Shown here: positions 18,773 to 41,603 of the stretch, one piece after another | Layout of the letters: every line of letters starts with the position of its first letter | Position numbering within the stretch: position 1 is the first letter of the stretch | Assembly (NCBI GenBank): GCA_029862165.1 | Contig: JAOTXU010000002.1 | Coordinates: 124,001-188,000, forward strand | Reading direction: 5' to 3' | DNA: 64,000 nt | Source of the DNA: Gammaproteobacteria bacterium | GTDB taxonomy: Bacteria; Pseudomonadota; Gammaproteobacteria; Steroidobacterales; JABDKV01 | Position numbers and translations under genes: made by a program | The notes under the pieces: generated by a model | Database searches by the model: none | What the model was told of the DNA's origin: nothing | Seen by the model: only the letters and a program-made list of their open reading frames with translations

Positions 18773-19798
18773 TCAGGCGGGTCCGGTGGAGTCGCGGATA
18801 ATCAACTTGGATTTGACGATGTGTTCGAAGTCGTCGGTACGCCGTGCATCGAATTTTGTCAGTAACAGATCAGTCGCAGCGGACGCCATACTTTGTATGG
18901 GCTGGCGTATCGTTGTCAGTGCCGGCCACAGGTAACTGGCCAATGGAATGTCGTCAAAGCCTGCTACGGATAGATCACCTGGTATAGATAAATTGCGCTC
19001 GTGCGCAACTTTCATGACGCCGGCCGCCATGTCATCGTTACTTGCAAAGATCGCCGATGGGGGATTGTCGAGATCTAGCAACTGCTGGGCACACTCGATA
19101 CCGGATTCAAACGAGTTGTAACCCTGTGCGACCCATTCCTTGCGCAATGGCAGACCGCACTCGTTCAAGCCGGCCTTGTAGCCATCAAAGCGCTGACCCA
19201 CCGCACCATGGTCGGGGTGACCAATGACAAAGGCGATGTCTGTGTGGCCGAGTGAGTTCAGATAAACGGTCATTTCGGCGCAGGCCTGTTCGTCATTTGT
19301 ATAGATTGCACGGCCCAAATCGCTGCGGTCCGCTGGCGCGATGCGCACAAACGGCATACCTAATTCAAGCAGTAATTCGACAACCGAGTCCATGTCCGAA
19401 AGGGGTGGAGTCAGTATCAGGCCATCAATTTTCGACTGGCTGATCATCATCTGCAACTCAGTTTTCAAGTTTGGGTCTTTGTAGACACAGGGATGAATGA
19501 TCAGATCGTAACCGGCAGCGCGACTGGCATTCAATGCGCCATCCTGGATGTTGATCAGGTAACTGGCACTCGGGTTGTCGTAGATTAGCCCGATCAGATA
19601 GGAACGCCTGGCAGCGAGGTTACGCGCCGACGGATTCGGCTGGTAGTTAAGCTCGTCAATAACCCTTAGAACCCTTGTGCGCGTGCCTTCCCGCACATTA
19701 GCCTCGTTGTTGGCGACCCTCGAGACGGTTTTGATCGACACGCCCGCCAGTCTGGCGACATCCGCGATTGTTGCTCTTGGGGGGCCCTGTGTGCTCAT
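18773..19798 (-). CDS. LacI-family transcriptional regulator 1
   Basis: ATIADVARLAGVSIKTVSRVANNEANV N-terminal HTH; periplasmic-binding-like domain. Confidence 0.95.
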   Translation of the reverse strand: MSTQGPPRATIADVARLAGVSIKTVSRVANNEANVREGTRTRVLRVIDELNYQPNPSARNLAARRSYLIGLIYDNPSASYLINIQDGALNASRAAGYDLIIHPCVYKDPNLKTELQMMISQSKIDGLILTPPLSDMDSVVELLLELGMPFVRIAPADRSDLGRAIYTNDEQACAEMTVYLNSLGHTDIAFVIGHPDHGAVGQRFDGYKAGLNECGLPLRKEWVAQGYNSFESGIECAQQLLDLDNPPSAIFASNDDMAAGVMKVAHERNLSIPGDLSVAGFDDIPLASYLWPALTTIRQPIQSMASAATDLLLTKFDARRTDDFEHIVKSKLIIRDSTGPA

Positions 19799-19822: not shown

Positions 19823-19978
19823 TTATGACGAGCAGTCACTCGTCAGGCCACTGGGTTTCGGCGGTAGGAAGAACAGCGCCATAATCTGTAGATTGCTAAA
19901 GTTAACCCTGCCGTTGCTGTCAACGTCAAGTATGGGGTCGATGCCAAAGAAGCCCTCAGCGATAATCCGGAGATCGGC
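19823..19978 (-). pseudogene. Dockerin/EF-hand-like C-terminal segment, in frame downstream of the stop of the Kazal-like ORF
   Basis: Manual translation after TAA at 19979: ADLRIIAEGFFGIDPILDVDSNGRVNFSNLQIMALFFLPPKPSGLTSDCSS*; DxDxNG calcium-loop-like motif. Confidence 0.5.
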
Positions 19979-21412: not shown

Positions 21413-22450
21413 TTATTGGCGAAGAACTGCGTTGACAGTTCCGGTGGATAGCCGCACGATCAGGCGGGCGTCGATAATTTCCTTGAGCTGAGGTTTGTCC
21501 TGCGAGTCGAGGCGCTCAATCAGAATTCTTGCCGCAGATTGCGCCATTTCTCTGATCGGCTGACGAACGGTTGTCAATGCGGGCCAAGTTTGCGTGGCTA
21601 TCGGTGTGTCGTCAAAGCCTGCCACCGATAAGTCTTTGGGCACTTGTAAACCCATGTCATTGGCGGCACTGATCACACCCGCTGCCATATCATCGTTGGC
21701 AGCAAATATTGCCGTGGGTGGGTCCTGCTTTTTCAATAGCTGGTTTGCGGCGCTCACACCCGATTCAAAACTGTTTTGCCCCTGGGCGACGAGTTTTCGG
21801 GAATAAGAAATGCCTGCATCTTTAAGCGCTCTCCGGTAACCATTTTCCCGGGTCGCCATCGCTTTATGGTCGGGATGCCCCCTGATAAACGCGATTCTCC
21901 GATGACCTAGCGAGACAAGGTGGTGCGTGATTTCGAAACTAGCCGCTTCATCGGTCGTTGCGACCCATGGATAATTTTCCTGCCTGTCGGCCGGCGCAAT
22001 CTGGATGAACGGCGTACCTTTCTTATCCAGCGCAGAAATGAGGCCGCGCACATCGGACAAGGGCGGTGTCAAAACGACACCGTCGCACCGACCCTGGTGC
22101 TGCAAATTTATGACTTCATCTGCAAGGTCGGGATTGGTGTGATCACAAGGGTGAACGAGCAGATCGTACCCACGGGCATTGCAGGATTCCAGTACACCAC
22201 TCTGAATATTAAACAGATAATTGGCGCTGGGGTTGTCATACAGCAGTGCCAGGATGTAAGAACGTCTCGATGCTAGCCGCTGCGCTGACAGATTCGGACG
22301 GAAGTTGAGACGTTCTATCGCGATGTTTACTCTCTTACGCGTAGCCTCCGCGACATTCGGCAGCCCATTGACAACTCGTGAAACAGTTTTAATTGAAACA
22401 CCGGCAAGTGATGCAACGTCGTTGATAGTGGCTTTTTTGATTTCACTCAT
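21413..22450 (-). CDS. LacI-family transcriptional regulator 2
   Basis: MSEIKKATINDVASLAGVSIKTVSRVVNG; paralogous to 18773..19798. Confidence 0.95.
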   Translation of the reverse strand: MSEIKKATINDVASLAGVSIKTVSRVVNGLPNVAEATRKRVNIAIERLNFRPNLSAQRLASRRSYILALLYDNPSANYLFNIQSGVLESCNARGYDLLVHPCDHTNPDLADEVINLQHQGRCDGVVLTPPLSDVRGLISALDKKGTPFIQIAPADRQENYPWVATTDEAASFEITHHLVSLGHRRIAFIRGHPDHKAMATRENGYRRALKDAGISYSRKLVAQGQNSFESGVSAANQLLKKQDPPTAIFAANDDMAAGVISAANDMGLQVPKDLSVAGFDDTPIATQTWPALTTVRQPIREMAQSAARILIERLDSQDKPQLKEIIDARLIVRLSTGTVNAVLRQ

Positions 22451-22595
22451 CTTCTTCAGACTTCTTATTCGCAGATCGGCGAACATTGCTCAGGCAGAAA
22501 AAGCGACTCCCCGTTTCTGAATTTACAGAAGCGGTGGCTAGCTCTACCTCCTTACTGACCGGCGCTTTGGTTCACGCATACTTTCGGTAACCCGG

Positions 22596-25175
22596 TTAGT
22601 TCCTGATGTGACGAGCGGCCCGAATTCCCCAGGAGCGTGGGGCGTTCCAGGCAAACATTGGTCTGCTGCCCTGATCCGATAAGTAGATTGGAAAACGTTC
22701 GTCAGTGGCGTTGTATACGAAGGCTTCCACATTCCATGTTTCATCCGGACTGGTATAGCGCAACGTCGCATCCAGCGTGCCGAACGCATCGCGTCTTTGC
22801 GAGAACTGGGGCAATGCGTCGAAGTTACCTTCGTTGAAATGGGTCTCATCTTCCCAGTGGAATTTCACGTATGGCGTCAGGCTGGCGTTATTCTTCAGGT
22901 AAAAATTATGCTCATACGCGAGTGTCAACGATACGGGCGTCGAGTAAGGCAGTTTCTTGCCTTCGATGTTATTAACGCCTGACCCATCGTCCTGGGGAAT
23001 GCACGCAAACTCGGGCCCGGCGTCAGCGCGATCATCGCAAAAGAAAGCCTCGCCGACATAGCCCGGCCAGCTTTTGAACTCCGCATTCAGAAGCCCCAAG
23101 CCCCCGGTGAATCTGCCGTTATCCCAAGGTATCCAATCGAATTCGACTTCCAAACCCTTGATTTCAGCCTTGCCGGCATTGGTGGTCACCAAGTTGCCAA
23201 TTTCCTGCTCCGGTATTACCGGCGTGCCAGGTGGGTCTTCCACTACGCCAACGGTACGGAACTGCGCTACCTGCTTGTTATCGAAATCGGTCAAGAAGGC
23301 TGTCACAACCAGGTTCATTGATCCATCTAACAGAGTGGTCTTGTAACCCACTTCGTAATTCAACACTTCTTCCGGCTCAAAATTGAATATTTCTATGCGG
23401 CCGCAGCGGCAAACGTCGACTCCATCCCCGAAGGAGCCCGCCTTGGAGCCAGTTGCAGCATACGCATAGAGAAACGAGTCCGAGTTCAGATCGTAATCAA
23501 GTCCAATGCGCCAGTTTGATTGGTAAAAGCTGGCTTTATTATCGTTAATATCAAAAATAGAGTAGTTGGCGTCACGATTTTGTGCACCAAAACCCTGGAG
23601 TATCTCCGCACTGGTAAACAGCGGTAAAACCAGCTCATCCAGCTGCGCAGGGGTCGGGTGACCGTCATTGGGGATCAGACCCTGGCTAAAGGTGCCGCTG
23701 CCAAAGGCACCAATGTTGCGTCCGCCGACATCTTCACGCGTATCCTCTGTATAACGCCCGCCAATCGTTAGATGCCATTGATCTGTCAAATGCCAGGTGG
23801 CCTGGCCAAAGATGGCCTGGGACTCCAGCGTGCGTTCGGGCTGTTTAAATGAAATTCCCCCCAGGCCACCATGACTGCAACAAAACGGCAGTTCCACGTC
23901 GAAAATAATGGAATTGTCCTCGCGAAAATCAAACAGGCCCACAATCCAGTTCACCGGACCGGTCAGACCCTGGAACTGGAGTTCGTTGGAGTAAGACTTG
24001 TAGTCGGATTCCGCAGTGGCCAGGTAAAGGGACGGCCATGGTTGATACCGATTGAGCCAGCCTGTAGTCGGTCCGGGCACAGGCCGCCAGCCCATGTCCG
24101 CGTCCCACTCCTGGGCCCGTTGCTGGCGGGCCCAGCCGAAGTTGTAAACGAGGTCGATATTGTCAGTAAGCGCGTAGTTTATATGACTGCGTACGGCATC
24201 CATGCTCATATCGAGAGTGCCAGGGATATTGGGATCAACGTAGTCGATACCCCCGCCGTTAAACCGGCACAGTTCAGGATTCACTTCGCAGTTGGGCGCC
24301 GTCGGCCAGCCAGCGCTGTTATCCTGGCCTTGCTCGAAGCTGAGACGAAAGTCAAAGCGGTCATTGGGTTCCCACAGGCCGCTGACGCGCCAGGCCCAGC
24401 GATCCGAGTTACCGTAGAAATCCTCCGGATGCACCCGGCGATTACGGCGCTGGTCCATGTCGGGGATGCCATCGGGGCCTTCGAAACCGCGGCCCTCGAG
24501 ATCCTTGTTCCCCGTGTCCTGGTCGGCGAAACCATCGCGTGTCTCGACAAAGAAATTACCGCGTAGGGCAAAGGTGTCCGTAATCGGTAAGTTCAACGTG
24601 CCCAGGGCATTCTGTTGTTCACGGTTGCCCATCTCTATACCAAACGTACCGAATATGCCTTCGGTAGTCGGCTTTGCCGTGACCACGTTGATGCTCCCGG
24701 CCGCTGAATTGCGACCGAACAAGGTGCCTTGTGGTCCGCGCATGACTTCCAGCCGCTCCAGATCGAACATCAGAGCAACTGCACCCTGTGGACGTGGCGA
24801 GTACACGCCATCCACGTGAAATGCCACGCTGGGATCGGCGATCTCGGTGAAATTGTTGCTGTTGATGCCACGCAGGGTCAGCTGCACGCCGCTGTCCGAC
24901 GGCGAAAACGCTACGTCGAAGTTGGGCACCATGTCGGCAGCATCACGAATGTCCTTTACCCCATCTCTGGTCAGCGTTTCCTGGTTAAAGGCCGACACGG
25001 CGATGGCGGTGGTCATCACATCCGTTTCGACGCGCGTCGCGGTCGTAAGGACTTCCTCGATCACGTTCTTCGGCGTTATCTCATCAGCAGCCTCTTCTTG
25101 CGCCGCGACCCACTGCGGAACCGCGATGGCAGCAATCAACAGTATGGTGGGTGCCAGATTCTTCATAGCTCTCAT
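22596..25175 (-). CDS. TonB-dependent receptor (likely oligosaccharide uptake)
   Basis: Plug domain (MRGPQGTLFGRNSAAGSINVVTAKPT), C-terminal beta-barrel, signal peptide; next to GH16/LacI. Confidence 0.93.
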   Translation of the reverse strand: MRAMKNLAPTILLIAAIAVPQWVAAQEEAADEITPKNVIEEVLTTATRVETDVMTTAIAVSAFNQETLTRDGVKDIRDAADMVPNFDVAFSPSDSGVQLTLRGINSNNFTEIADPSVAFHVDGVYSPRPQGAVALMFDLERLEVMRGPQGTLFGRNSAAGSINVVTAKPTTEGIFGTFGIEMGNREQQNALGTLNLPITDTFALRGNFFVETRDGFADQDTGNKDLEGRGFEGPDGIPDMDQRRNRRVHPEDFYGNSDRWAWRVSGLWEPNDRFDFRLSFEQGQDNSAGWPTAPNCEVNPELCRFNGGGIDYVDPNIPGTLDMSMDAVRSHINYALTDNIDLVYNFGWARQQRAQEWDADMGWRPVPGPTTGWLNRYQPWPSLYLATAESDYKSYSNELQFQGLTGPVNWIVGLFDFREDNSIIFDVELPFCCSHGGLGGISFKQPERTLESQAIFGQATWHLTDQWHLTIGGRYTEDTREDVGGRNIGAFGSGTFSQGLIPNDGHPTPAQLDELVLPLFTSAEILQGFGAQNRDANYSIFDINDNKASFYQSNWRIGLDYDLNSDSFLYAYAATGSKAGSFGDGVDVCRCGRIEIFNFEPEEVLNYEVGYKTTLLDGSMNLVVTAFLTDFDNKQVAQFRTVGVVEDPPGTPVIPEQEIGNLVTTNAGKAEIKGLEVEFDWIPWDNGRFTGGLGLLNAEFKSWPGYVGEAFFCDDRADAGPEFACIPQDDGSGVNNIEGKKLPYSTPVSLTLAYEHNFYLKNNASLTPYVKFHWEDETHFNEGNFDALPQFSQRRDAFGTLDATLRYTSPDETWNVEAFVYNATDERFPIYLSDQGSRPMFAWNAPRSWGIRAARHIRN

Positions 25176-25282
25176 AATCGGTTCATCCTTCTGATGCGCA
25201 TTTCTCAAGTCAGCAGTTTTGGATAAGAAAACACGGTTTGCACGGACCACGCCGGTCACGCGCGTTTCTTGCAACGGGCAAG

Positions 25283-28200
25283 TCATGTCCCTGCTCCAAC
25301 GAGTGTGGCCGCGGCGGTGTCAAACCATATCGGGTTCTCGCCCCCGGCAAAGTCGATATTCAACAGTAAAAATACAACTTCCGTTGTGCCCGCAGGCGCC
25401 ACGCCCTGCGCTTCGGTGAATACCCACGTGTTGATCGGACTCGCATCGTTGATGGGCGGCGCCGATTCAATGCCCGGAAACTCTGTGTTAATGACACCGA
25501 TGCTTGCTGACGCTGGTACGAGATCATTGCCAGCCGCGTCTTTAAAGACAATTTTGACCAGACCAAAGCTTGCACCAACAGGCAGCGCCGTCTCGGTCAG
25601 CATCCACGCAGAGAAGTTAAACTCGTCGCCCGGATTCGCGGCCAGCGTCTGGCTGAGTTCCGGTACTCCACCACCACCGGTAACAGTCAGCTGAGCAGCA
25701 AAAACACCCGCCTGCGCCCCAACACCTGGTGCGCCCGCCGTGTTGTCCCCATTGCTCGTCCAACCGCTTAAATCACCGGCTTCGAAGCCGGCATTGACCA
25801 GCTCATCGGACGGCGGCGGGGCGGTAACGAGTGTGGCCGCGGCGGTGTCAAACCATATCGGGTTCTCGCCCCCGGCAAAGTCGATATTCAACAGTAAAAA
25901 TACAACTTCCGTTGTGCCCGCAGGCGCCACGCCCTGCGCTTCGGTGAATATCCACGTGTTGATCGGACTCGCATCGTTGATCGGCGGCGCCGATTCAATG
26001 CCCGGAAACTCTGTGTTAATGACACCGATGCTGGCCGACGCTGGTACGAGATCGTTGCCAGCCGCGTCTTTAAACACAATCTTGACCAGACCAAAGCTTG
26101 CGCCAACAGGCAGCGCCGTCTCGGTCAGCATCCAGGCCGAGAAGTTAAACTCGTCGCCCGGATTCGCGGCCAGCGTCTGGCTGAGCTCCGGTACTCCACC
26201 ACCACCGGTAACAGTCAGCAGGGCAGCAAAATCACCCGCCTGCGCCCCAACACCCGGGGCACCCGCCGTGTTGTCACCATTGCTCGTCCAACCGCTTAAA
26301 TCACCGGCTTCGAAGCCGGCATTGACCAGCTCATCGGACGGCGGCGGGGCGGTAACGAGTGTGGCCGCGGCGGTGTCAAACCATATCGGGTTCTCGCCCC
26401 CGGCAAAGTCGATATTCAACAGTAAAAATACAACTTCCGTTGTGCCCGCAGGCGCCACGCCCTGCGCTTCGGTGAATATCCACGTGTTGATCGGACTCGC
26501 ATCGTTGATCGGCGGCGCCGATTCAATGCCCGGAAACTCTGTGTTAATGACACCGATGCTGGCCGACGCTGGTACGAGATCGTTGCCAGCCGCGTCTTTA
26601 AACACAATCTTGACCAGACCAAAGCTTGCGCCAACAGGCAGCGCCGTCTCGGTCAGCATCCAGGCCGAGAAGTTAAACTCGTCGCCCGGATTCGCGGCCA
26701 GCGTCTGGCTGAGCTCCGGTACTCCACCACCACCGGTAACAGTCAGCAGGGCAGCAAAATCACCCGCCTGCGCCCCAACACCCGGGGCACCCGCCGTGTT
26801 GTCACCATTGCTCGTCCAACCGCTTAAATCACCGGCTTCGAAGCCGGCATTGACCAGCTCATCGGACGGCGGCGGAGGCTCACTAGAACCTGAAAATGTA
26901 ATGCTATCGAAGTAAATAATATTTTCAGAAGTTCTGCCAGCCTCATCCCAGTCCGGGAAAATGACAAGTCGATCCGTATCTACGAAACCGGTGCTCCCAA
27001 TAAAGCCAGTGAAGTCAAAAGTCAGTTCTTCCCACTGATTGACCAGCGTGTTGGTCACACTCAATGGGTCCTGCGCACCGTTGGTTGTATTGACAAACTG
27101 CATCCGCACTTCACTAATGACCGGCTTCCATACCCAGACCTTCACGATGCTGTTGCTGGCATCGAAGTCGAAAGGACCAATGTCCGCAACGCCGGGCCCG
27201 TCTGCTGGGTGGAAAGTCTGCGCCCCGGCAAAAAATGCACCGTCCACTCGTGCAGTGAACTTCGCAACCGTCGCAGACGTGTTCCCTGTCGGATCAGGGT
27301 TAGCCACGATCTCCAGCGGAGGATTGTCCGCATTCTCGAACACACTCCAGTCGAAGTCCCCGCCAACACCAGGCGTTTCAAAGTCAATGGTGCAAGGCGC
27401 GCAGGGAGTTCCGCCGCCGCCGCCAGTCACCAGTGTGGCCGCGGCGGTGTCAAACCATATCGGGTTCTCGCCCCCGGCAAAGTCGATATTCAACAGTAAA
27501 AATACAACCTCCGTTGTGCCCGCAGGCGCCACACCCTGTGCTTCGGTGAATACCCACGTGTCGATCGGACTTAAGTTGTTGAGAGGCGGAGCCGATTCAA
27601 TGCCCGGGAAATCGCCAGAGATAAGCATGCCAATGCTCGCTGACTCCGGTACCAGGTCATTGCCAGCTGCGTCTTTAAAGACAATCTTGGCCAGACCAAA
27701 GCTTGCACCAACAGGCAGCTCCGCCTCAGTCAGCATCCAGGCCGAGAAGTTAAACTCGTCGCCCGGACTCGCAGCGAAGCTCTGGTTGAGTTCCGGGACT
27801 CCGCCACCACCGGTAACAGTCAGCAGGGCAGCAAAATCACCCGCCTGCGCCCCAACACCCGGTGCGCCCGCCGTGTTGTCCCCGTTGCTCGTCCAACCGC
27901 TTAAATCGCCCGCTTCAAAGCCGGCATTGACCAGCTCACCGGGCGGGCCGGTAACGAGTGTGGCCGCGGCGGTGTCAAACCATATCGGGTTCTCGCCCCC
28001 GGCAAAGTCGATATTCAACAGTAAAAATACAACTTCCGTTGTGCCCGCAGGCGCCACACCCTGTGCTTCGGTGAATACCCACGTGTTGACCGGACTTGCA
28101 TCGTTCAGAGGCGGAATCGATTCAATGCCTGGGAAATCGCCAGTGATAAGCGTGCCAATGCTCGCTGACTCCGGTACCAGGTCATTGCCAGCTGCGTCTT

Positions 28201-31200
28201 TAAAGACAATTTTGGCCAGACCAAAGCTCGGGCCAGCAGGCAACGCCGCCTCGGTCAGCATCCAGGCAGAGAAGTTAACCTCGTCGCCCGGACTCGCAGC
28301 GAAGCTCTGGTTGAGCTCCGGCACTCCGCCACCACCAGTAACAGTCAGCTGGGCAGCAAAATCTCCCGACTGCGCCCCAACACTCGGTGCGCCCGCCGTG
28401 TTGTCTCCGTTACTCGTCCAGCCGCTTAAATCGCCCGTTTCGAACCCGTCATTACTGAGCGCAATAGTTGGCGCCGGCGGCGGCGCGCCGAAGACGACGT
28501 TATCCCAGAAGTAAACCGCATCGTTTCCTTCGGTGCCGAAATCGAAGAATATCGATGCCTTCTCGAAGGTCATGGCCGTATCGATGTCGACTGTGCTGAA
28601 GTCCCAGCTCAGCGTTTCCCACTGATCAGCCATTAGCGGGAACGCGTCCAGCTCGGCGAAACAGGTCGGGTCACTGCCGTCAGAGGGGCAGTCCGCCGTC
28701 TCCACCTTCAGCCTGACCGGTATCCCGGCCATGGGCACCCGCACGTCTACACTCATGGACGTCTGGTTGGCTGTGAACGGGATCGGGTTGGCGAAAACAG
28801 GATTACCGATGGTGGTACCCGCCCAAACCGGGGCACCCGTCGGCTTGGTAGTGATCGCCACCGTGTTACTGGCGCCATCCGGGTCGGCACCGAGCACCGT
28901 CGAAGCAGCGACAGGATCGCCAAAGTCGATCACTGTGTAGTCGACGAAGGGATCATCAAAGGTCACCGGCAAGTCGATTGGGTCGAGTACCGGATCGGGT
29001 ACATCTGCCGTAAGCGTCCAGCGGATGTTGTCCACCTGGAAGGTGATGCCTACCGGTGCGAAACCGGGGAATATTACGATGCCGGTGTTGATCTTGGTCA
29101 GATTCAGCCCGCCCCTGACCAGCTGGGATACGGGAATTGTAATCGTCTCCCAGACGCCGTCCGCGATCCTGCCGAGGAACTGGTCGCCACTGCCGCACTG
29201 GTTGTCTGAGAAGTCGCAATCGACCTTCATCGTGATTCCGGATGCCGTGTCGTAATCAGTTACCCGGATATCAAAGATCAGCGCGCCTTCGGCAAAACCG
29301 CTCAGATCGGTTGCACCTGCCACGCCCAACTGAGGATTGCTGGAGATAAACCAGACGCCGCTTGCTGAGTTGTCTTCAAAGACGACCTCGATAATATTGC
29401 CGCGCGCAGTATCTTCCGCCGGCTTGATTTCCCAATTGATCTTGTTTGCCGACTGGGGATCCCTGTAGTCCCCGCCCGAATCTGTGTCGAATGCTTCGAT
29501 GCCGCCGATCCATAGCTCTCCAACAGCATCATCGAACACGATGACGTCCTCCGGGCTGCCCTTGGGCTGCGCATTGCATCCGCTGGAGGTCTTGCAAGCG
29601 GCACTGACGCTGATGTTATCGAGGTACACATCGACATCGCCATCGAGCACCTCGAATACAAACAGGTTCAACACGTTTTCCAGATCGATGCCCTGGCCAC
29701 CCTGGTCCACGAACGCCGGATTGGCCAGAAGATCCGCGATATCGATGCCGTAGGTCTGCCATTCGCCGACCACCGGATCCGCCAAAGCAACCTCGCCGCC
29801 ATCCGGAAAACCACTGTCCATCCTGATCAGTATCGTAGCGCCAGAGATGGAGTTAACCAGCATTTCGAATTGGAGCTGGCCGGCGATGTCGCCGCGCCTG
29901 AGATCAAAGCCGGTCTCCAGCAACGATTCTTCATCCAGAATCTCAGAACCTATGAACACATTGCCGACACCGCCGCTGCCGGCGATGTTGACATGCCACA
30001 CTATATTGGTGGCGTCGTCCGGATCAGTGAAGAGGGGATCGTTGGCGATGACGCTGCCGTTATCATTGAATTCGCCCACCTGAAGGGTGTTGCTGGCCTG
30101 CTCCTGACCAAGCGATATTTCGACGACTTCCGGGCCGTCCTTAAATATGTCGAAGCCCGCGATCTTGAGCGGATCGTCTTCTTCCAGAGGTACGACTGAC
30201 GGATCTGCCCGGCCGCAGCCGCGTCCCGTTGTCGGGTTGGCATTAGCGCACTGATAAATCTGAACGTAATCGATCTCGTAATGTTGCGGAAACACGGTCG
30301 TTGCGTCGGGAGCACCAACCGGATCTCCGCCGACGGCGAGGTTTAACAGCAGATGGAATTGCTGGTCAAAAGGCGCCGCCTCGAGACCGAGCTTGAACAC
30401 GCCATCAGGAGTGAAAAACCCATCTGGCCCGGCTTTGAAGTAGGAATACCAGTTATCAGAATTCTGAGTCTGGAAATGTTGGCCATCTACAAAAAATCGG
30501 ATCTTGCCTTTTTCCCATTCAACTTCGTATTCGTGGAAGGCCAGATCAGGGGATACCTCGAGATCGAATTCTGATCCATTAAACGAACCGTTCGGCTCCG
30601 GCATGCCGTAATGCAAGGTGCTTGAAATTTTTGTGTTGCCATTTCCCGGATTGAAACTTTCCATGATGTCGATTTCACCGGATGGCGGCCAGGGGCCATA
30701 GAGGTTTTCAGTAGAAAGCATCCAGGCTGCGGGCCACATACCCTGTCCGCTGGGCAGGCGCGCGCCGATTACGACGCGACCATAGGTAAAGTCGAATTTG
30801 TCTCGGGTATTGATCCGCGCCGAGGTATAAGAACCGTCCAGTTCTTCGCGAGCCGTGATAGTTAGTGTTCCTCCGGACACGAGGATATTGTCTTCGCTGT
30901 AGATTTGCAGTTCGTTATTACCCCAGCCCGGGATACCCTCGTCGGTACCATCACCTGTCTGGATGTTCCATTTACTGGCATCCAGACTCGTATCTTCAAA
31001 CTCATCTTCGAACACGAGCTGCCACTCGACGACCGCCCGTTCGAATTCACCCGCCGGTACTCCGTCTGACACACCGCCGCAGGCCGATAACAGCAGCGCC
31101 GCCGTAACGGCGGTCAAAGGTGCGAGTCGCGAACGCGACAAGGCCTCGACAACCTGAGATCGGGCAAAGGCAGAATCACCAAGGCTAGTGTTGTTAGCGT

Positions 31201-31225
31201 GATTCTGGGAATTTCGACTTGACAT
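25283..31225 (-). CDS. GH16-family beta-glucanase (laminarinase-like) lipoprotein with many CBM-like domains
   Basis: LLLSACGG lipobox; GH16 signature GEIDIMES; GHYGMP/NLAVGG; at least five NAGFEAGDLSGWTSNGDN CBM-like repeats plus other beta-sandwich-like modules. Confidence 0.9.
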   Translation of the reverse strand: MSSRNSQNHANNTSLGDSAFARSQVVEALSRSRLAPLTAVTAALLLSACGGVSDGVPAGEFERAVVEWQLVFEDEFEDTSLDASKWNIQTGDGTDEGIPGWGNNELQIYSEDNILVSGGTLTITAREELDGSYTSARINTRDKFDFTYGRVVIGARLPSGQGMWPAAWMLSTENLYGPWPPSGEIDIMESFNPGNGNTKISSTLHYGMPEPNGSFNGSEFDLEVSPDLAFHEYEVEWEKGKIRFFVDGQHFQTQNSDNWYSYFKAGPDGFFTPDGVFKLGLEAAPFDQQFHLLLNLAVGGDPVGAPDATTVFPQHYEIDYVQIYQCANANPTTGRGCGRADPSVVPLEEDDPLKIAGFDIFKDGPEVVEISLGQEQASNTLQVGEFNDNGSVIANDPLFTDPDDATNIVWHVNIAGSGGVGNVFIGSEILDEESLLETGFDLRRGDIAGQLQFEMLVNSISGATILIRMDSGFPDGGEVALADPVVGEWQTYGIDIADLLANPAFVDQGGQGIDLENVLNLFVFEVLDGDVDVYLDNISVSAACKTSSGCNAQPKGSPEDVIVFDDAVGELWIGGIEAFDTDSGGDYRDPQSANKINWEIKPAEDTARGNIIEVVFEDNSASGVWFISSNPQLGVAGATDLSGFAEGALIFDIRVTDYDTASGITMKVDCDFSDNQCGSGDQFLGRIADGVWETITIPVSQLVRGGLNLTKINTGIVIFPGFAPVGITFQVDNIRWTLTADVPDPVLDPIDLPVTFDDPFVDYTVIDFGDPVAASTVLGADPDGASNTVAITTKPTGAPVWAGTTIGNPVFANPIPFTANQTSMSVDVRVPMAGIPVRLKVETADCPSDGSDPTCFAELDAFPLMADQWETLSWDFSTVDIDTAMTFEKASIFFDFGTEGNDAVYFWDNVVFGAPPPAPTIALSNDGFETGDLSGWTSNGDNTAGAPSVGAQSGDFAAQLTVTGGGGVPELNQSFAASPGDEVNFSAWMLTEAALPAGPSFGLAKIVFKDAAGNDLVPESASIGTLITGDFPGIESIPPLNDASPVNTWVFTEAQGVAPAGTTEVVFLLLNIDFAGGENPIWFDTAAATLVTGPPGELVNAGFEAGDLSGWTSNGDNTAGAPGVGAQAGDFAALLTVTGGGGVPELNQSFAASPGDEFNFSAWMLTEAELPVGASFGLAKIVFKDAAGNDLVPESASIGMLISGDFPGIESAPPLNNLSPIDTWVFTEAQGVAPAGTTEVVFLLLNIDFAGGENPIWFDTAAATLVTGGGGGTPCAPCTIDFETPGVGGDFDWSVFENADNPPLEIVANPDPTGNTSATVAKFTARVDGAFFAGAQTFHPADGPGVADIGPFDFDASNSIVKVWVWKPVISEVRMQFVNTTNGAQDPLSVTNTLVNQWEELTFDFTGFIGSTGFVDTDRLVIFPDWDEAGRTSENIIYFDSITFSGSSEPPPPSDELVNAGFEAGDLSGWTSNGDNTAGAPGVGAQAGDFAALLTVTGGGGVPELSQTLAANPGDEFNFSAWMLTETALPVGASFGLVKIVFKDAAGNDLVPASASIGVINTEFPGIESAPPINDASPINTWIFTEAQGVAPAGTTEVVFLLLNIDFAGGENPIWFDTAAATLVTAPPPSDELVNAGFEAGDLSGWTSNGDNTAGAPGVGAQAGDFAALLTVTGGGGVPELSQTLAANPGDEFNFSAWMLTETALPVGASFGLVKIVFKDAAGNDLVPASASIGVINTEFPGIESAPPINDASPINTWIFTEAQGVAPAGTTEVVFLLLNIDFAGGENPIWFDTAAATLVTAPPPSDELVNAGFEAGDLSGWTSNGDNTAGAPGVGAQAGVFAAQLTVTGGGGVPELSQTLAANPGDEFNFSAWMLTETALPVGASFGLVKIVFKDAAGNDLVPASASIGVINTEFPGIESAPPINDASPINTWVFTEAQGVAPAGTTEVVFLLLNIDFAGGENPIWFDTAAATLVGAGT
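25298..26881 (-). repeat. Three tandem 528-bp coding repeats (copies 2 and 3 appear identical by eye)
   Basis: AACGAGTGTGGCCGCGG start at 25298, 25826, 26354; identical internal antisense ORFs at 25888 and 26416. Confidence 0.95.
27428..28463 (-). repeat. Two further, more diverged copies of the same ~525-bp repeat
   Basis: Starts at ~27428 and ~27953; encode GFE(A/T)GDLSGWTSNGDNTAGAP modules. Confidence 0.9.
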
Positions 31226-31300
31226 GACAGTACCTCAGCGTTCGAGAACGCGGTTCGCAGTTGATTGGTCGAGTTTGTTCAATGGCCTTATAGGGCTTAA

Positions 31301-31314
31301 TGACAGCGTTGTCA
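31301..31314. promoter_or_regulatory. Putative LacI-type operator upstream of GH16
   Basis: TGACAGCGTTGTCA dyad, CG centre. Confidence 0.6.
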
Positions 31315-31409
31315 AAATACTGACATTTTGTTGCAGTGCACGGCTCAAGAGCAAGAAATCTCTAATCATTGTAATGAGTTGTAAACTATTGAATCATTTA
31401 ACCGATTTC

Positions 31410-31423
31410 TGACATCGCTGTCA
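31410..31423. promoter_or_regulatory. Second putative LacI-type operator upstream of GH16
   Basis: TGACATCGCTGTCA dyad. Confidence 0.55.
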
Positions 31424-31571
31424 TACTGAGGTCATCGGCCCAGCCGTTGTGGGCGAACGTCGGTTCCGCAATGATCTGGCTTCATATTTGCCTGGTGACG
31501 GATTGGACAGTTTTGAAGTGCTCGATCGCTGATCTAGCACCTCTCGAAGGCGAGCTCCTGGAACAATGTGC

Positions 31572-33209
31572 CTACCAGTACGCCGCATAGATCGCCGCCA
31601 GAACCAGGACAACGATAAGGGCGGAGATCTTGAAAGCGGTTGTGGTAGAAAAATCGATGCCTTCGAGGTTCACCGGTTGATCCGCCGCAGGTTCCGGCGT
31701 CACGACGGATATGAGGACGCCTGTGAGTATGCAAGCTGCAAAAACGATCACGATATTGATAACAAACGGAAAGTCGGAAGGCATTACTTGATCCAACAAG
31801 ATCGAGAATGCCAGTGATCCGAGGATCGCCGCGAGAGCGCCGTATTCTGTCGCCCGTTTCCAGAACATGCCGAGCAGAAAGACCGCGACGATGCCGGGGG
31901 CAATGAATCCTGTGTATTTTTGAATGAATTGAAAAGCGCTTTCGAGGTTACCCAGGAGGGGTTGTGCGACGAACAGTGCTATAAGCCCCGCGACTAAAGC
32001 GGTGAGGCGGCCCACCGCCACGTACTGCGTTTCTGGGCGACCTGGCCTTAAGTCTTCGTAGACGTCCATCGTAAAGATTGTGGCGATGGAGTTCATCATG
32101 GACGCCAATGAAGAGACGATCGCCGCAATTAGCGCCGCAAAGATCAGGCCACGAATACCCGACGGCAGGAGCTTCATTACCGTGGGGTAGGCCCGGTCCG
32201 ATTTTCCACAGGTATCCGGGTCAGCGGGATTACTGCAAATACTTGCATCCAGCAGGGCAGGGTCAATCACGTTATCGAGACCTGGCGACGACAGCATGAC
32301 CGCGGCAATGCCCGGCAGTACGACTACGAGCGGCGTTAACATTTTCAGAAAGGCGGCGAACACGAGGCCTTTCTGCGCCTCCGCCAGATCCTTAGCGCCA
32401 AGGGCTCGCTGGATAATGTATTGGTTGAAACCCCAATAGCTGAAGTGGAGAATCCACATTCCGCCGAGCAGCGTCCAGATACCGGGAAGGGCGTCGTAAC
32501 CGTTGTCGCCCGGATCCAGGATCATCTCGAACCTCTCCGGCAGCTCAGTGACCAGACGCCCGAATCCGCCCAGCACGCCGCTTTCGCCGCCGATCATTTC
32601 GAGCGTGAGATAAGCAATGAAAAAACCGCCCGAGATCAACAGCACAACCTGAATGATGTCGGTCAGCGCCACGGCCTTGAGGCCACCATAAACCGAGTAG
32701 GCATAGGCAAATGTGCCCAGCGATGCCATACCCCAGAAGTAGGGAATCCCCGTCAGGGAATTTACGGCAAGCGAGCCCAACCAGAGCACTGTTGCGAGAT
32801 TGACGAACGTGTAGAGTGCCAACCAGTAGATCGACATGGTCACCTTGACCTTGTTGCCGAATCGCTGCTCGAGAAACTGCGGCATCGTGTAGATTTCCCT
32901 CTTAAGGAAAATCGGCAAGAAGAAGGTCGCAACGATGATCAATACCAGCGCCGCCTGCCACTCGTATGCCGCGATTGCCAAACCAATACGGTAGCCGTCT
33001 CCGGTCATGCCGATTATCTGTTCCGCGGAGATGTTGGCTGCAATCAACGATGCGCCAATCGCCCACCAAGGCAGTGCCTTTCCGGCGAGAAAGTAGTCTT
33101 GTGTGTTCTTTGAGTGTCCCGGCGGCTCGCGGCTGACCCACCAGGCGATGGAGAAAAGGCTCACGGCGTAGATGGCAACGACGATAAGGTCGGCGGTTGT
33201 GAGGTACAT
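31572..33209 (-). CDS. Sodium:solute symporter (SSS family)
   Basis: Multi-TM; SWWVSREPPGHSKNTQDYFLAGKALPWWAIGASLIAANISAEQIIGMTG typical SSS/SGLT N-terminus. Confidence 0.93.
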   Translation of the reverse strand: MYLTTADLIVVAIYAVSLFSIAWWVSREPPGHSKNTQDYFLAGKALPWWAIGASLIAANISAEQIIGMTGDGYRIGLAIAAYEWQAALVLIIVATFFLPIFLKREIYTMPQFLEQRFGNKVKVTMSIYWLALYTFVNLATVLWLGSLAVNSLTGIPYFWGMASLGTFAYAYSVYGGLKAVALTDIIQVVLLISGGFFIAYLTLEMIGGESGVLGGFGRLVTELPERFEMILDPGDNGYDALPGIWTLLGGMWILHFSYWGFNQYIIQRALGAKDLAEAQKGLVFAAFLKMLTPLVVVLPGIAAVMLSSPGLDNVIDPALLDASICSNPADPDTCGKSDRAYPTVMKLLPSGIRGLIFAALIAAIVSSLASMMNSIATIFTMDVYEDLRPGRPETQYVAVGRLTALVAGLIALFVAQPLLGNLESAFQFIQKYTGFIAPGIVAVFLLGMFWKRATEYGALAAILGSLAFSILLDQVMPSDFPFVINIVIVFAACILTGVLISVVTPEPAADQPVNLEGIDFSTTTAFKISALIVVLVLAAIYAAYW

Positions 33210-33261
33210 CAGATTATTGTCCCCTGGCGATATGTGATGGCTGCACCAATATTTCGTACAG

Positions 33262-35748
33262 CTATTTCGTACAACTGAGTGCTGCCTCTCTGGCTACGCC
33301 GGGAATAATCTCGATATCGGCTATCGAGAGCGTGAACTTACCCCGGGTCAGTAGCAGAAATGGTGTGTCGATCTTGCGGAAGTCGGCGCCGTTTTGCGCA
33401 AAGCAATTCAAATCCATCGACAGTGTGGTCCAGACACCACCAGGTAGCGTCTTGAAAACTTTGGTCAGGTTGGCTTCTGCCTTGCAGGGCCACTCACAAC
33501 CGACGCGCATCATGACGTTTTTCTTGGGTGGGCTATCCACGCGCACGCGAACCAGCAGCGCCGACTCAGATTCCAGGTAGCTCGTAAGATCTTGCGACGC
33601 TGCCTGCAGATAGACCTGGGCTTCGCCCTTGCCGTGCCAGATGAGCTGTCTGGCATCTTCCTGCACGTCTTTGTCGATAGTTTTGACGGTGACCTTGCCG
33701 CCCCAGGATGTCGTACTAGCGCCCTCGACTGGCACCTGCCACCCGGCACTGTCGCCTACGTAGAGTTTATACGGCGCGATGGCGCGGCGCTGGAATATCG
33801 CCATCGCACCGCTGCTGCCGCCAGGCATGATCGTCGCTGCGCTATCGCCTTCTTCCGGTAATTTTCCAACTTCATCGGTACTGCTGTAGTTCAGACCATA
33901 CCCATAGGGAAATAAAGGCCGGTAGTCGGTGTCGTTGCGATTGACTTCTGTCTGCTCCGGATTGTTGGGCCATGAATAGGATAGCTGCCCGTGGAAATCG
34001 TAATGTATCTCGCCAGATGCATTTTTAAAGATGACATCGGCCACACCGGCGCCTTCGGTGCCGGGCAGCCACGCGGCAATGAAAGCATCCGAGGCATTGA
34101 GCTCGGGATTGATCCACATTGGCCGGCCGGACAGGAATATTGACACCACCGGGACGCCGTCTGCTTGTAACTGGCGCAACAGCCTCACCTCGCTGCCAGT
34201 GTTGTAGTCGACGTTTTTGCGATCACCCTGACCTTCGGCGTACGGCGTCTCGCCGAATACGACGATGGCAACATCGGGTTTGTTCTTGTATTTCCCATCG
34301 ACCTCAAGTGTGGCTGTACCGCCACTACTCTCGACGACCTGCCGGATTCCTTCATAGATCGAAGTCGCACCGGGGAACTCGTTGTTCTTGTTTCCGGTAC
34401 CCTGCCAGGTGATACTCCAGCCGCCTGATTGTTGCCCGATATTATCGGCGCCCGGGCCGGCGACCAGCACATTCATATCGCGGCTCAGCGGCAAGACGTC
34501 ACCATTGTTTTTCAGGAGGACCAGCGATTCGCGTACTGCCTGGCGCGCTATCTGGCGGTGTTCGGGGCAACCGATAATTGAAGCATCGCCGGCGTTGGGA
34601 CGTGCCGAGGGGCGGCCGGCCTCGAACAAACCAGCGCGCAATTTCACCCGCAGAATACGCAGCACTGCATCGTCGATACGTGCTTCGGAAATATCTCCTT
34701 GGCGTACCTGGGATATCGTGTTCTTAATGTAGGCCTTCCATTCCTCGGGCACCATGATCATGTCAACGCCGGCATTTATGGCCCGAGCGCAACCGCTGTT
34801 GGTGCACTCGGGCACCTGTCCGACACCGTTCCAGTCGCTGACGACGAAACCGTCAAAACCCATTTTTTCTTTCAGAACATCGTTCAGCAGATACTGATGC
34901 CCATGCAGCTTTTCCCCATTCCAGCTATTGAACGTTGCCATTACTGTCTGGGCGCCGGCTTTCAGCGCGCTGAAATAACCTTTTGCGTGGATGTCGCGCA
35001 GAACTTCCTCAGTCACGCGCGTGTCGCCCTGGTCGACGCCTCCGGCGGTGCCACCGTCGCCGATAAAGTGCTTGGCGGTGGCGACTACGTGATCGCTGTT
35101 GAGTAATTGGCCGCTTCCAGCAGATCCCTGTATCCCGCGGACCATGTTCCTAGCGTACTCTTGCACAATTTCTGGATCTTCGGAGTAACCTTCATAGGTG
35201 CGACCCCAGCGGTCATTGCGCACTACCGCCACGGTCGGCGCAAAAATCCAGTCGATTCCCGTCGCGGCGACTTCACGTGCCGTGGCCGCGCCGATGCGTC
35301 GGATGAGCTCGGGATTGCGCGTGGCGCCCAGCCCAATGTTGTGCGGAAATAGTGTCGCGCCGATTACATTGTTATGGCCATGTACTGCGTCAGTGCCCCA
35401 AATGATCGGGATCGCAGCTTTGGTTTGCATTGAGGCATCGTAGAAAGCGTCGGCAAGATCTACCCAATCGCTGATCGTGGAGTTCTTGTTACTGCCGGGG
35501 AAGGAACCGCCCCCATTGAGGATCGAACCAAGATGATAGGTCCGGGCGTCTTCGGGCGTTACGCTTTTGATTTCCGCCTGGATTAGCTGTCCGACTTTTT
35601 GTTCCAGAGTCATCCCGTCCAGAATTTCGCGGGCGCGTTGTTCGACTGCCGGATCAGGTCCCACGTCGCTTGCGATAGCGGGCCAGTCAGCGGCATTGGC
35701 AGCCGTAAATAATGTTCCTGCCAGGAGCAGGCAGAGCTGGGATTTCAT
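33262..35748 (-). CDS. GH3-family beta-glucosidase with C-terminal ExoP-like domain
   Basis: DGMTLEQKVGQLIQAE, KHFIGDGGT, GFVVSDWNGVGQ nucleophile motif; C-terminal CBM-like domain. Confidence 0.93.
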   Translation of the reverse strand: MKSQLCLLLAGTLFTAANAADWPAIASDVGPDPAVEQRAREILDGMTLEQKVGQLIQAEIKSVTPEDARTYHLGSILNGGGSFPGSNKNSTISDWVDLADAFYDASMQTKAAIPIIWGTDAVHGHNNVIGATLFPHNIGLGATRNPELIRRIGAATAREVAATGIDWIFAPTVAVVRNDRWGRTYEGYSEDPEIVQEYARNMVRGIQGSAGSGQLLNSDHVVATAKHFIGDGGTAGGVDQGDTRVTEEVLRDIHAKGYFSALKAGAQTVMATFNSWNGEKLHGHQYLLNDVLKEKMGFDGFVVSDWNGVGQVPECTNSGCARAINAGVDMIMVPEEWKAYIKNTISQVRQGDISEARIDDAVLRILRVKLRAGLFEAGRPSARPNAGDASIIGCPEHRQIARQAVRESLVLLKNNGDVLPLSRDMNVLVAGPGADNIGQQSGGWSITWQGTGNKNNEFPGATSIYEGIRQVVESSGGTATLEVDGKYKNKPDVAIVVFGETPYAEGQGDRKNVDYNTGSEVRLLRQLQADGVPVVSIFLSGRPMWINPELNASDAFIAAWLPGTEGAGVADVIFKNASGEIHYDFHGQLSYSWPNNPEQTEVNRNDTDYRPLFPYGYGLNYSSTDEVGKLPEEGDSAATIMPGGSSGAMAIFQRRAIAPYKLYVGDSAGWQVPVEGASTTSWGGKVTVKTIDKDVQEDARQLIWHGKGEAQVYLQAASQDLTSYLESESALLVRVRVDSPPKKNVMMRVGCEWPCKAEANLTKVFKTLPGGVWTTLSMDLNCFAQNGADFRKIDTPFLLLTRGKFTLSIADIEIIPGVAREAALSCTK

Positions 35749-35828
35749 TCGTCCCCCAAAGGCTTATTGGTGCACAGCAGCAAAAAACTGGTGTTTTCTC
35801 AATATTCGAGCAGTTTATATAGCCCTGA

Positions 35829-35842
35829 TGACAGCGTTGTCA
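35829..35842. promoter_or_regulatory. Putative LacI-type operator upstream of GH3
   Basis: TGACAGCGTTGTCA, identical to 31301..31314. Confidence 0.6.
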
Positions 35843-35889
35843 ACCGGGCGAGAGGCCGATGCCTCGAAGGACACGAGGCATAGCCCCGG

Positions 35890-37107
35890 TTAGTAGCGGG
35901 CGCTGAACATTAACCAGAATTTTTTGACGTCGGAGAAGGCGACGGCATCGGCATTGAACAGCGCAGCTTTAAGCAGAATGCTGTAGTTCGAGTCAAACTT
36001 GCGACCGATTGACAGATCCAGTTCGTCACCGAAATCGGCGCCTGAATCATCGCTGTCTAAAAAATGGTACAGGGCTTTCCACGACCACACGTCGAGCTTG
36101 CCCGAGGCGCCGATCCATGTATCAGTGAGGCCGGTGCTTGGCGTACCCAGAAACTGGTCGGCCCAGCCATTAAATGCGTGCAGCGTGGCCAGTGGCGTAC
36201 GAAAAGCGGCGCCACCCATACTGTTGTCACCCGAAAGCAGTTCATAGCCCGCCAGCGCCGTCACCGGACCCAGGTTTAGCGCTCCATCGATCCTGAAGTA
36301 ATCGGCATCGTAGTTCACCGGGTTATTGGCTGCATCGCTTTGCCGCGCGTATTCCACGAGGTAGCTCAACGGCTTGTCAGATAATTTGGTTTTGCCGGCA
36401 AAACGCAGACCTATGGTATTGGTCGAAGCGCCGGCGGAATCGTCGTTATCGATTCCATAGTAGTAACCGGTCAGGGTTCCGGTATCCGAAATAGCGTAGC
36501 TGGCATTTAGCAAGTGTGTCGAAGAGTCGTGATCGCCGGCGTCAACATCGTCACCGAAGATGCGGTTGACGTTGTCAACATAAGCGTAAAACACTCTCGC
36601 ATTGTCATTTAGTTTATGCTCAATGCTGACAGCGTCGTAGGTTTGTTCGTTCTGACGCCAGCCGACACCACCGACAAATCGCTGGTTATCGAGATTGATA
36701 CGCTGGCGTCCGACCCGGATGTTGGTGTTATCCCATCCCGAGTACTGCAGGTATACCTGGTTGATCTCGAGGTAGTCCGGATCGGCGACTACCGGGTAGC
36801 GGTTGCGCGCCAGACTGCTGGTGCCCGCACCGCTGTTGTAGTCGTCAATGAACAATACACCCAGACCATCCAATTCTGCGAAAGCACGAAAACCCTCGTA
36901 CTGTCCACTCAGCCAGTTTAGCCGGGCACGCAACGTGGATGCATTTGCGTTATCGCCAAATCCGTCCTGGTCAACAAATTCGTAGCGATAACGCAGACTA
37001 CCGTGTACCTCACCCGCACCGGCAGCTTCAGACAGGGTATCGGCGCAAGCGGGCAGGGCGCACAGCGCGCCCACGCCTGCCATCATTAATGTTGTTAATA
37101 CCCGCAT
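35890..37107 (-). CDS. Outer-membrane porin (alginate-export-like beta-barrel)
   Basis: Signal peptide, GSLRYRYEFVDQDGF, RVGRQRINLDNQRFVGGVGWRQNEQTYDA, C-terminal ARY. Confidence 0.75.
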   Translation of the reverse strand: MRVLTTLMMAGVGALCALPACADTLSEAAGAGEVHGSLRYRYEFVDQDGFGDNANASTLRARLNWLSGQYEGFRAFAELDGLGVLFIDDYNSGAGTSSLARNRYPVVADPDYLEINQVYLQYSGWDNTNIRVGRQRINLDNQRFVGGVGWRQNEQTYDAVSIEHKLNDNARVFYAYVDNVNRIFGDDVDAGDHDSSTHLLNASYAISDTGTLTGYYYGIDNDDSAGASTNTIGLRFAGKTKLSDKPLSYLVEYARQSDAANNPVNYDADYFRIDGALNLGPVTALAGYELLSGDNSMGGAAFRTPLATLHAFNGWADQFLGTPSTGLTDTWIGASGKLDVWSWKALYHFLDSDDSGADFGDELDLSIGRKFDSNYSILLKAALFNADAVAFSDVKKFWLMFSARY

Positions 37108-37109
37108 CC

Positions 37110-39278
<2,169 letters not shown>

Positions 39279-41444
39279 TCACCATTGCAAAAATATAGAT
39301 AAACCGGCGTGACGCCCCGGCTCGGATAACAAAGGCCGGGTCGGGTCGTCTGCCGATAGCCCGCGGACGCTGCTCCAGCGCCAGTGAGCTTTGTCGAAAA
39401 CATTGAATAGACCTGCACGCAACGTCGCGTTTGCGATCGCGTAACGCGCGGTGAGATCGACGATGCCAAACCCGGCAGTACGGGCCAGTTCATCGTCCGG
39501 ATCGTCGATATCATCCTGTTGGTCGACCAGCGTCCACGTAAGCTGGGCCGTCAACGGCAAATTGCTTGCGTGCCAGTCGACGCCGAGCACCATCTCAGCC
39601 GGGTCAATCGTGTTGATGGGCGCACCGGTGAGGTCGTCCTCGCCGCGGGTCCAGGCCAGCGCCAGGTTTAGATCCAGATTCGGGCGCAACAGCTGCCGAT
39701 AACGCAATTCAGCACCATAGATATGTGCGGTGTCGAGGTTGCGGGACTGGAATAGCAAAGTACCTGTGCCGGGTTCGATGCCCAGCCGGGCACGGCTATC
39801 GATGAAATCGTCGTATTCGGTGTAATGTGTCGCCAGGCTGAACGAGCCATTGGGTGCATAGTGTCTGATACCCAGCTCCAGCCCATCCGATGTCTCGGAA
39901 CGCAAATCGGGATTGGGTAAAGCGCGAAAGTTGAAAAACGGAATATCCAGACCGATATTCGCGTCCTCGAAAGGTGGCGCACGGAAACCACGTGCGTACT
40001 GACCGAATACCGACCAGCCACTGTCCCAGGAATAGATCACGCCCAGTTTCGGCGAGAGATTGTTCTCATGGATATTGACGATGTTGCTGTTGGGGTTGTC
40101 TTCCAGGTATAGCGCGTCGGGACGGGGGTCCAGGTCATAGTCGTCAAATCGCAATGCGGGAATCAGCGTCCAGGCATTGATGCTGATTTCATCCTGCACG
40201 TAGATGCCCAGTTCCGTATCACGGGACACGGGAAAATCACGTACCGGGAAAGTCTCACCCAACACAATATTGGTCCGGTCTGCACCGGCCAGTGTCGTTT
40301 GCCACGCATCACGCGATTCCGTCGTGTCCGTACGCGCCAATTCGATGCCGTATCCCAGGTTGTGTGTCGCACGCTGGCCTTCAATGCGCGTACTGGCATT
40401 GAATTCGAGACCGGTAGTTTCCTGTTTGAAATCGAATTGGCGCTCTCGGCGCAGGTCGCGAGTGGCGCGTTCTTCAACTGAAAACTGGTCCGTGTCTGTT
40501 GTGTGCTGATACGCAATCAGAACACCGTCGACGCCTTTCACGCGAAAATCATAAGCGAGGCTCAGCCGGTCGCGATCTTGTCGGTCATCGCCGGTGAGTA
40601 GCGTGGTGGAGCGAAAACGGCCGGTACCCAGTATGGAACGCACATTGGTGTCACCTTCGCGACGATAGGTTTCCAAAGTGGCGGTGAGGCGGTCAGTCTG
40701 GTTGATATCCCACGTTAGCTTGCCGAAGACATTGGCCGTGTCCCAGTCTTGCCAGTCCTCCGCAGCATCGCCAAGCGCGGATGCATCGCGTTGCTCGCCC
40801 TCGCGGTGACCGAGTGACAAGAGCAGGCCGGTGTTGTCACCGGTCCAGGCGGTGGTCAGGCGTGAATCGTAGCTTTCCTGATCGTCGCGATAACCGCTGG
40901 CGAGAGATAAATAGGGATTCCCTGTGCTGGCAAGATCGTCCGGATTGTACGTTAGATAAGACACCACGCCACCAATGGCGTCAGAACCATAGAGCGTGGA
41001 TGCCGGGCCATAGAGCACCTCGACCCGCCGAATCAGACCGACGTCAATCGCGTCCCTGCCGGCGTTGGAGTAGCTGCCTATCTGGAAGTGAGTAGCGGCC
41101 GGGATGCCATCGAGCTCAATGGCAACGCGGTTTCCCCCCACACCACGGATGCTGTAGCTATCCCAGCCGAAGCGGGTGCTGGCTCGGGGCAGCGAGATTC
41201 CGGGTGTATAGCGCACCAGGTCGGCAATATCGATCGACAGGCGATCTGCCAGGTCGTCGGCGTCGACCAGGGTGACCGAGCCGGCCACATCGGAGATTGG
41301 CCGCGGGCTCTTGGTGGCCACGACCACCACCTCTTCGACGTCCTCGGAGCCGGGCACTTCGTCGGCAATCAGGCGCACTGGTGGCACCAGCATCAGCAGG
41401 CAGAGGGCCACCGCCGCCCACGCCGTGCGATAATCATGTTGCAT
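39279..41444 (-). CDS. TonB-dependent receptor (heme/hemoglobin-type)
   Basis: EEVVVVATKSPRPISDVAGSVTLVDADDL TonB box/plug; RRVEVLYGPASTLYGSDAIGGVVSYLTY. Confidence 0.88.
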   Translation of the reverse strand: MQHDYRTAWAAVALCLLMLVPPVRLIADEVPGSEDVEEVVVVATKSPRPISDVAGSVTLVDADDLADRLSIDIADLVRYTPGISLPRASTRFGWDSYSIRGVGGNRVAIELDGIPAATHFQIGSYSNAGRDAIDVGLIRRVEVLYGPASTLYGSDAIGGVVSYLTYNPDDLASTGNPYLSLASGYRDDQESYDSRLTTAWTGDNTGLLLSLGHREGEQRDASALGDAAEDWQDWDTANVFGKLTWDINQTDRLTATLETYRREGDTNVRSILGTGRFRSTTLLTGDDRQDRDRLSLAYDFRVKGVDGVLIAYQHTTDTDQFSVEERATRDLRRERQFDFKQETTGLEFNASTRIEGQRATHNLGYGIELARTDTTESRDAWQTTLAGADRTNIVLGETFPVRDFPVSRDTELGIYVQDEISINAWTLIPALRFDDYDLDPRPDALYLEDNPNSNIVNIHENNLSPKLGVIYSWDSGWSVFGQYARGFRAPPFEDANIGLDIPFFNFRALPNPDLRSETSDGLELGIRHYAPNGSFSLATHYTEYDDFIDSRARLGIEPGTGTLLFQSRNLDTAHIYGAELRYRQLLRPNLDLNLALAWTRGEDDLTGAPINTIDPAEMVLGVDWHASNLPLTAQLTWTLVDQQDDIDDPDDELARTAGFGIVDLTARYAIANATLRAGLFNVFDKAHWRWSSVRGLSADDPTRPLLSEPGRHAGLSIFLQW

Positions 41445-41603
41445 GCGTGAATTCTGCCGGGGTCTACGCCTTTTTTCTGTAAGCAGATACACCTACTAAA
41501 TGAGACTCAGTTCTCGCTTTGGTGGGAGGCTGGGATCGGGGGCGAAATCCCGGTGGTGTAAATGCGGCAAAGCCGCAAACGTGATGAAGAGAGGAACCAA
41601 CAA

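Follow-up and report, generated by a model that had tools for sequence, protein, structure and literature searches.

Predicted operators of a local LacI-family repressor overlap the promoters of two putative beta-1,3-glucan operons in a gammaproteobacterium

Genes and candidate operators of the locus

The window, the 64,000-nucleotide stretch of DNA analyzed here, carries two neighboring groups of genes on the minus strand which, judging from their spacing and strand, would form the operons GH16-TonB receptor-lacI1 and GH3-SSF (Table 1). The GH16 domain of the first gene finds its best solved relatives among the laminarinases (3azx), while the GH3 protein matches an exo-1,3/1,4-beta-glucanase (3usz) over nearly its full length, with an E value of 1.8e-246. 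Since the GH16 enzyme is closest to laminarinases and the GH3 enzyme to an exo-1,3/1,4-beta-glucanase, the locus would be dedicated to beta-1,3-glucan, and probably to laminarin, as far as enzyme family can indicate the substrate. The GH16 protein also contains several near-identical long repeats (NAGFEAGDLSGWTSNGDNTAG...), some of which match CBM_4_9 and the NTTRR-F1 model. The minus-strand region 35890-41492, which lies upstream of the GH3 operon, encodes an alginate-export-like porin, a cytochrome c / cytochrome d1 haem protein, and a second TonB receptor; no operator was found in this region.

Table 1. Coordinates of the genes, candidate operators, and promoter elements in the window.
Feature	Position	Strand	Basis
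lacI2, same recognition-helix residues as lacI1	18773..19798	-	52% identical to lacI1
C-terminal remnant of X, the secreted protein preceding GH16 and lacI2 in congeners	19832..19975	-	tblastn, 47% over 49 aa
lacI1, last gene of GH16-TonB-receptor operon, recognition helix I-K..R	21413..22486	-	PF00356
TonB-dependent receptor, start overlaps GH16 stop	22596..25286	-	PF00593, PF07715
GH16 laminarinase-type lipoprotein, 1980 aa, repeated carbohydrate-binding-like modules	25283..31225	-	PF00722, PF02018
-10 hexamer TATAAG of proximal GH16 promoter, 17 bp from -35	31287..31292	-	scan by spacing
Predicted proximal operator of GH16 operon, TGACAGCGTTGTCA	31301..31314	.	exact match; fits TGACARCGYTGTCA
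-35 hexamer TTGACA, overlaps left arm of proximal GH16 operator	31310..31315	-	layout conserved in relatives
Candidate -10 TTAAAT of distal promoter, with -35 ATGACA (31419-31424), spacer 17	31396..31401	-	scan by spacing and conservation
Predicted distal operator of GH16 operon, TGACATCGCTGTCA	31410..31423	.	exact match to TGACANCGNTGTCA; variant at R position
SSF sodium:solute symporter, second gene of GH3 operon, 52 bp after GH3	31572..33209	-	PF00474
GH3 exo-beta-1,3/1,4-glucanase (ExoP type), first gene of GH3 operon	33262..35748	-	PF00933, PF01915, PF18559
GH3 -10 region: TATATA (spacer 16) or TATAAA (spacer 18)	35814..35821	-	scan by spacing
Predicted operator of GH3-SSF operon, TGACAGCGTTGTCA	35829..35842	.	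exact match
-35 hexamer TTGACA, overlaps GH3 operator	35838..35843	-	scan by spacing

An initial annotation of this DNA described a dyad that is identical at 31301 and 35829 and recurs at 31410, and proposed it as the operator of a pair of LacI proteins encoded nearby. A motif scan of the window finds exact matches to TGACANCGNTGTCA at precisely these three positions, and the pair of lacI genes is indeed present. All three dyads lie in non-coding DNA, as had been described, and all the genes concerned are on the minus strand; the proximal edges of the sites stand 75 and 184 bp upstream of the GH16 start codon (31225) and 80 bp upstream of that of GH3 (35748). LacI-family sites typically have a central CG and are located 30-140 bp upstream of the regulated gene (PMC4052901). 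The dyads are even palindromes near a start codon and do carry the central CG on which the annotation had relied, with the distal site, at 184 bp, falling outside this usual range and also departing from the R-CG-Y form. No operator was found before the TonB receptor, again in line with the annotation, and the ATG of the receptor overlaps the GH16 stop codon (25283-25286).

Distribution of the operator in the genome and in relatives

The three sites are the only matches to TGACANCGNTGTCA in the whole genome (3.34 Mb, 94.5% complete), and the reversed pattern used as a control has none. From base composition, 0.19 matches per genome are expected, so that at least three would occur with a probability of about 0.001, a value that leaves out the clustering of all three within 4.5 kb. 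Chance origin of the dyads was also considered in the window alone, where four matches are found when one mismatch is allowed, a count reached by 14 of 100 shuffles and therefore not significant; the genome-wide and cross-genome tests are significant, and it is on these that the weight rests. The genome holds 24 further one-mismatch matches, 23 of them inside open reading frames. The sole intergenic one is flanked by genes for a gamma-glutamyltranspeptidase and a TonB receptor and lacks the R-CG-Y form, which argues against a wider regulon in this genome. The motif is thus not frequent in unrelated intergenic DNA.

The pattern has 118 matches across 59 genomes of the order, and the reversed control has 5. 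The motif is present in 29 of the 30 genomes with a good lacI1 homologue and in 6 of the 28 without one (Fisher 1.5e-9; the test leaves out the genome of the window and is uncorrected for relatedness), the co-occurrence of operator and regulator that characterizes LacI systems. The neighborhoods of LacI homologues and motif sites in Cellvibrio, Xanthomonadales, Woeseiaceae, Wenzhouxiangella, and other groups contain 167 unique sites, of which 161 conform to TGACARCGYTGTCA, and a permuted pattern had no match in the loci scanned around LacI homologues. The genes adjoining these sites encode GH16, GH3, SSF, TonB receptor, and MFS_2 sugar transporter proteins, a GH17-domain protein, and LacI itself. 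Within the order, the motif precedes relatives of the GH16, GH3, or SSF genes in five genomes, and through operons in four more. In the genome with the closest GH3 (62-63% identical), encoded in a TonB receptor-GH3-lacI cluster, the 18 kb read around this cluster contain no exact site; the only pair of sites in this genome lies about 350 bp upstream of its SSF gene on another contig.

The three dyads are thus predicted to be operators of a local LacI-family repressor (the product of lacI1, lacI2, or both) that would switch the two beta-1,3-glucan operons, a reading for which we estimate a probability of about 0.9. An unrelated regulator, for instance of the TetR or GntR type, might own the dyad, the link to LacI being incidental, and the six genomes that carry one or two sites each while having no close LacI homologue could be taken that way. 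This is very improbable given the strong co-occurrence with this particular LacI subfamily, the central CG, and the presence of sites ahead of lacI genes themselves.

Overlap between operators and promoters

The left arm of the operator, together with one additional base, reads TTGACA and so forms the -35 box. In coding-strand orientation, the proximal site of GH16 takes the form TTGACA-ACGCTGTCATTAAGCCC-TATAAG, with a spacer of 17 bp. The additional flanking similarity between 31301 and 35829, which had already been remarked upon, is real and corresponds to the -10 box. A general promoter scanner found no promoter in this DNA because it demands a T at the last -10 position, and the hexamers were therefore located by their spacing.

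Relatives show this layout as well. Among 69 of their sites with one clear target gene, the -10 score peaks at a spacer of 17 among the downstream positions, where a fraction of 0.29 of the sites exceeds 4 bits, compared with 0.12 at 18, 0.07 at 16, and 0.00-0.07 at more distant downstream spacings. The score is higher toward the target than away from it (paired test, p 0.0017), and a T precedes the operator in 70% of the cases toward the target and in 32% away from it. The test is a moderate one, because the palindrome is also part of the away-from-target control; the sites, moreover, lack phylogenetic independence. In congeners, aaTTGACAACGCTGTCATTT...TATAAA is found ahead of the operon that ends in GH16-lacI2. 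The scores also show a smaller second peak, at which the last base of a -10-like hexamer coincides with the first base of the operator. This suggests that part of the relatives' sites sit just after the -10 box, and that the -35 layout is not universal.

Since a repressor on its site must cover the -35 box, exclusion of the polymerase is the best reading of this arrangement, and the regulator would act by repression rather than activation. A repressor dimer would cover the -35 box (TTGACA), which 16-18 bp separate from the -10 box downstream of it, and RNA polymerase would be shut out. By analogy with the family, a sugar released from a laminarin-type beta-glucan would then free the repressor, allowing expression of both operons. 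As lacI1 is the last gene of the GH16 operon, its product would close a negative feedback loop.

The distal GH16 site

The distal site, taken as operator plus -10 region, has 26 of 29 bp in common with the operator before a large GH16 gene in a genome of the same family, and its distance to the start codon is similar (184 bp here and 175 bp there). The alignment scores 43, against 24 for the best of 200 shuffles, a score to which the shared 14-mer itself contributes. Past the operator, 13 of the next 16 bases are identical to those of the same-family genome, and no other site compared shares as many. This conservation of operator and -10 region at a similar start distance indicates that the distal site is probably a promoter-operator of its own and not merely a looping site. 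The GH16 gene would accordingly be under two tandem promoter-operators, the distal one being conserved in the family.

Alternatively, a single repressor tetramer could bridge 31301 and 31410, which are 109 bp apart, in place of two tandem repressed promoters. Two sites before one gene are also seen in the lac operon of Escherichia coli, and this LacI group often has its sites in pairs, most of them 34-38 bp apart. Nevertheless, looping is considered unlikely, given that the 109-bp spacing is not seen in relatives and that the distal site has its own candidate -10 box and is conserved without a second site ahead of the same-family GH16 gene. Two tandem repressed promoters remain the preferred arrangement. 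Regarding the closer pairs, with 34-38 bp between operators, they occur in nine loci of Woeseiaceae and relatives, among others, often in divergent or TonB-receptor promoters, and the spacing suggests cooperative binding.

With respect to the initial annotation, the placement of the -35 hexamer in the left operator arm, the assignment of SSF to the second position in the GH3 operon, the probable promoter-operator at the distal site, and the location of lacI1 inside and lacI2 outside the regulated operon are additions.

The LacI proteins and their history

Both LacI proteins score well above the cut-off for PF00356 and PF13377, and thus combine a helix-turn-helix with a periplasmic-binding-protein-like sensor. 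They are 52% identical overall and have in common the recognition-helix residues I-K..R, which are also found in most LacI homologues whose loci carry the motif. From the shared helix, either protein could bind all three operators. The genome has only three LacI-type genes, two of them in the window. The third, at L187 3834-4256 (-), is a 140-aa open frame located beside amylase-like genes and a TonB receptor, and probably represents either a frameshift or a broken regulator of the maltose type; its different helix (Q-A) and its amylase-like neighbors led to its being set aside as a regulator of these operators.

The two paralogues appear to have different origins. LacI2 groups with a LacI from three congeners (74-78% identity), where the corresponding gene ends an operator-X-GH16-lacI operon; the same abhydrolase gene adjoins in two of the three. 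In the window, a C-terminal remnant of X lies directly upstream of lacI2, and the intervening GH16 gene is missing, so that lacI2 seems to have lost its operon. The remnant is likely a deletion scar, and lacI2 would appear to be the inherited regulator of the genus, deprived of its own operator-GH16 operon. LacI1 forms a long branch of unsure origin.

These observations bear on a possible division of work between the paralogues, in which both would use the same operators and respond to different sugars, or one would be idle, lacI2 being ancestral and lacI1 having arrived with the new operon. This would refine the local-repressor reading rather than oppose it. It draws on the common recognition helix, on the congeners' operons with their abhydrolase neighbor, on the 49-aa remnant of X just upstream of lacI2, and on the failure to find a close GH3 relative in any of the three congeners. 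Conversely, the remnant is short, the proteins are only 52% identical overall, and silence or different tuning of lacI2 is putative, for which reasons this division is held tentatively, at somewhat below even odds. More speculative is a two-input switch, in which two paralogues with the same DNA-reading helix and diverged sensors might compete for the three operators, after the resident lost its operon and the regulator of an incoming beta-glucan operon joined it.

Relation to known regulatory systems

The locus resembles the LacI-family local sugar regulons of RegPrecise, especially the predicted BglR/GluR beta-glucoside group, in having a lacI gene beside beta-glucan or beta-glucoside genes and in its even palindrome with central CG, its 30-140 bp position, and its local regulon (PMC4052901). 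Compared by gene content only, it differs from BglR1-3, described for Caulobacterales (PMC4052901), in being a gammaproteobacterial locus with endo- and exo-beta-1,3-glucanases. It also has the TonB receptor, transporter, enzymes, and regulator found together in carbohydrate utilization (CUT) loci such as sux of Xanthomonas campestris, with GH16/GH3 and an SSF transporter replacing the sucrose genes and with two LacI genes (PMC1790865). In the features tested, it corresponds to a local sugar regulon of the LacI family (PMC4052901) within a locus of the CUT type (PMC1790865), a well-supported reading and an ordinary kind of gene switch.

The operator core additionally fits the cre consensus of CcpA (TGWNANCGNTNWCA, PMC10992428). 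A literature search for the exact motif yielded nothing beyond a cre site designed with the core TGACAGCGCTGTCA; CcpA shifted fragments bearing this core in a gel assay (PMC10992428). CcpA structures are likewise the best solved-structure matches of LacI1. However, CcpA is a global regulator of Firmicutes that uses HPr-Ser46-P, whereas the regulator here is local, and the two LacI proteins reach 203 and 165 bits with the NCBIfam ccpA model, whose cut-off is 442, so they were rejected as CcpA. Nearly the same core is present in the NagR box of Xanthomonas, AATGACARCGYTGTCATT. NagR of Gammaproteobacteria is also a LacI-family regulator, which controls TonB receptors in Xanthomonas (PMC5343134), but its targets are N-acetylglucosamine genes, none of which were found at this locus.

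The prediction provides a testable operator and regulon for the use of beta-1,3-glucan of the laminarin type in this bacterium and its order. It also provides a rule for scanning relatives, in which the operator coincides with the -35 box (TTGACARCGYTGTCA) and a TATAAA-like -10 box comes after it; such scans may reveal further beta-glucan genes. In same-genus and same-family genomes (L168 3059-6091, L171 4185-6776, L175 3383-6049), an operator is found ahead of a large protein that combines F5/8 type C, Lipoprotein_15, and di-haem oxidoreductase domains and is unexpected in a beta-glucan regulon.
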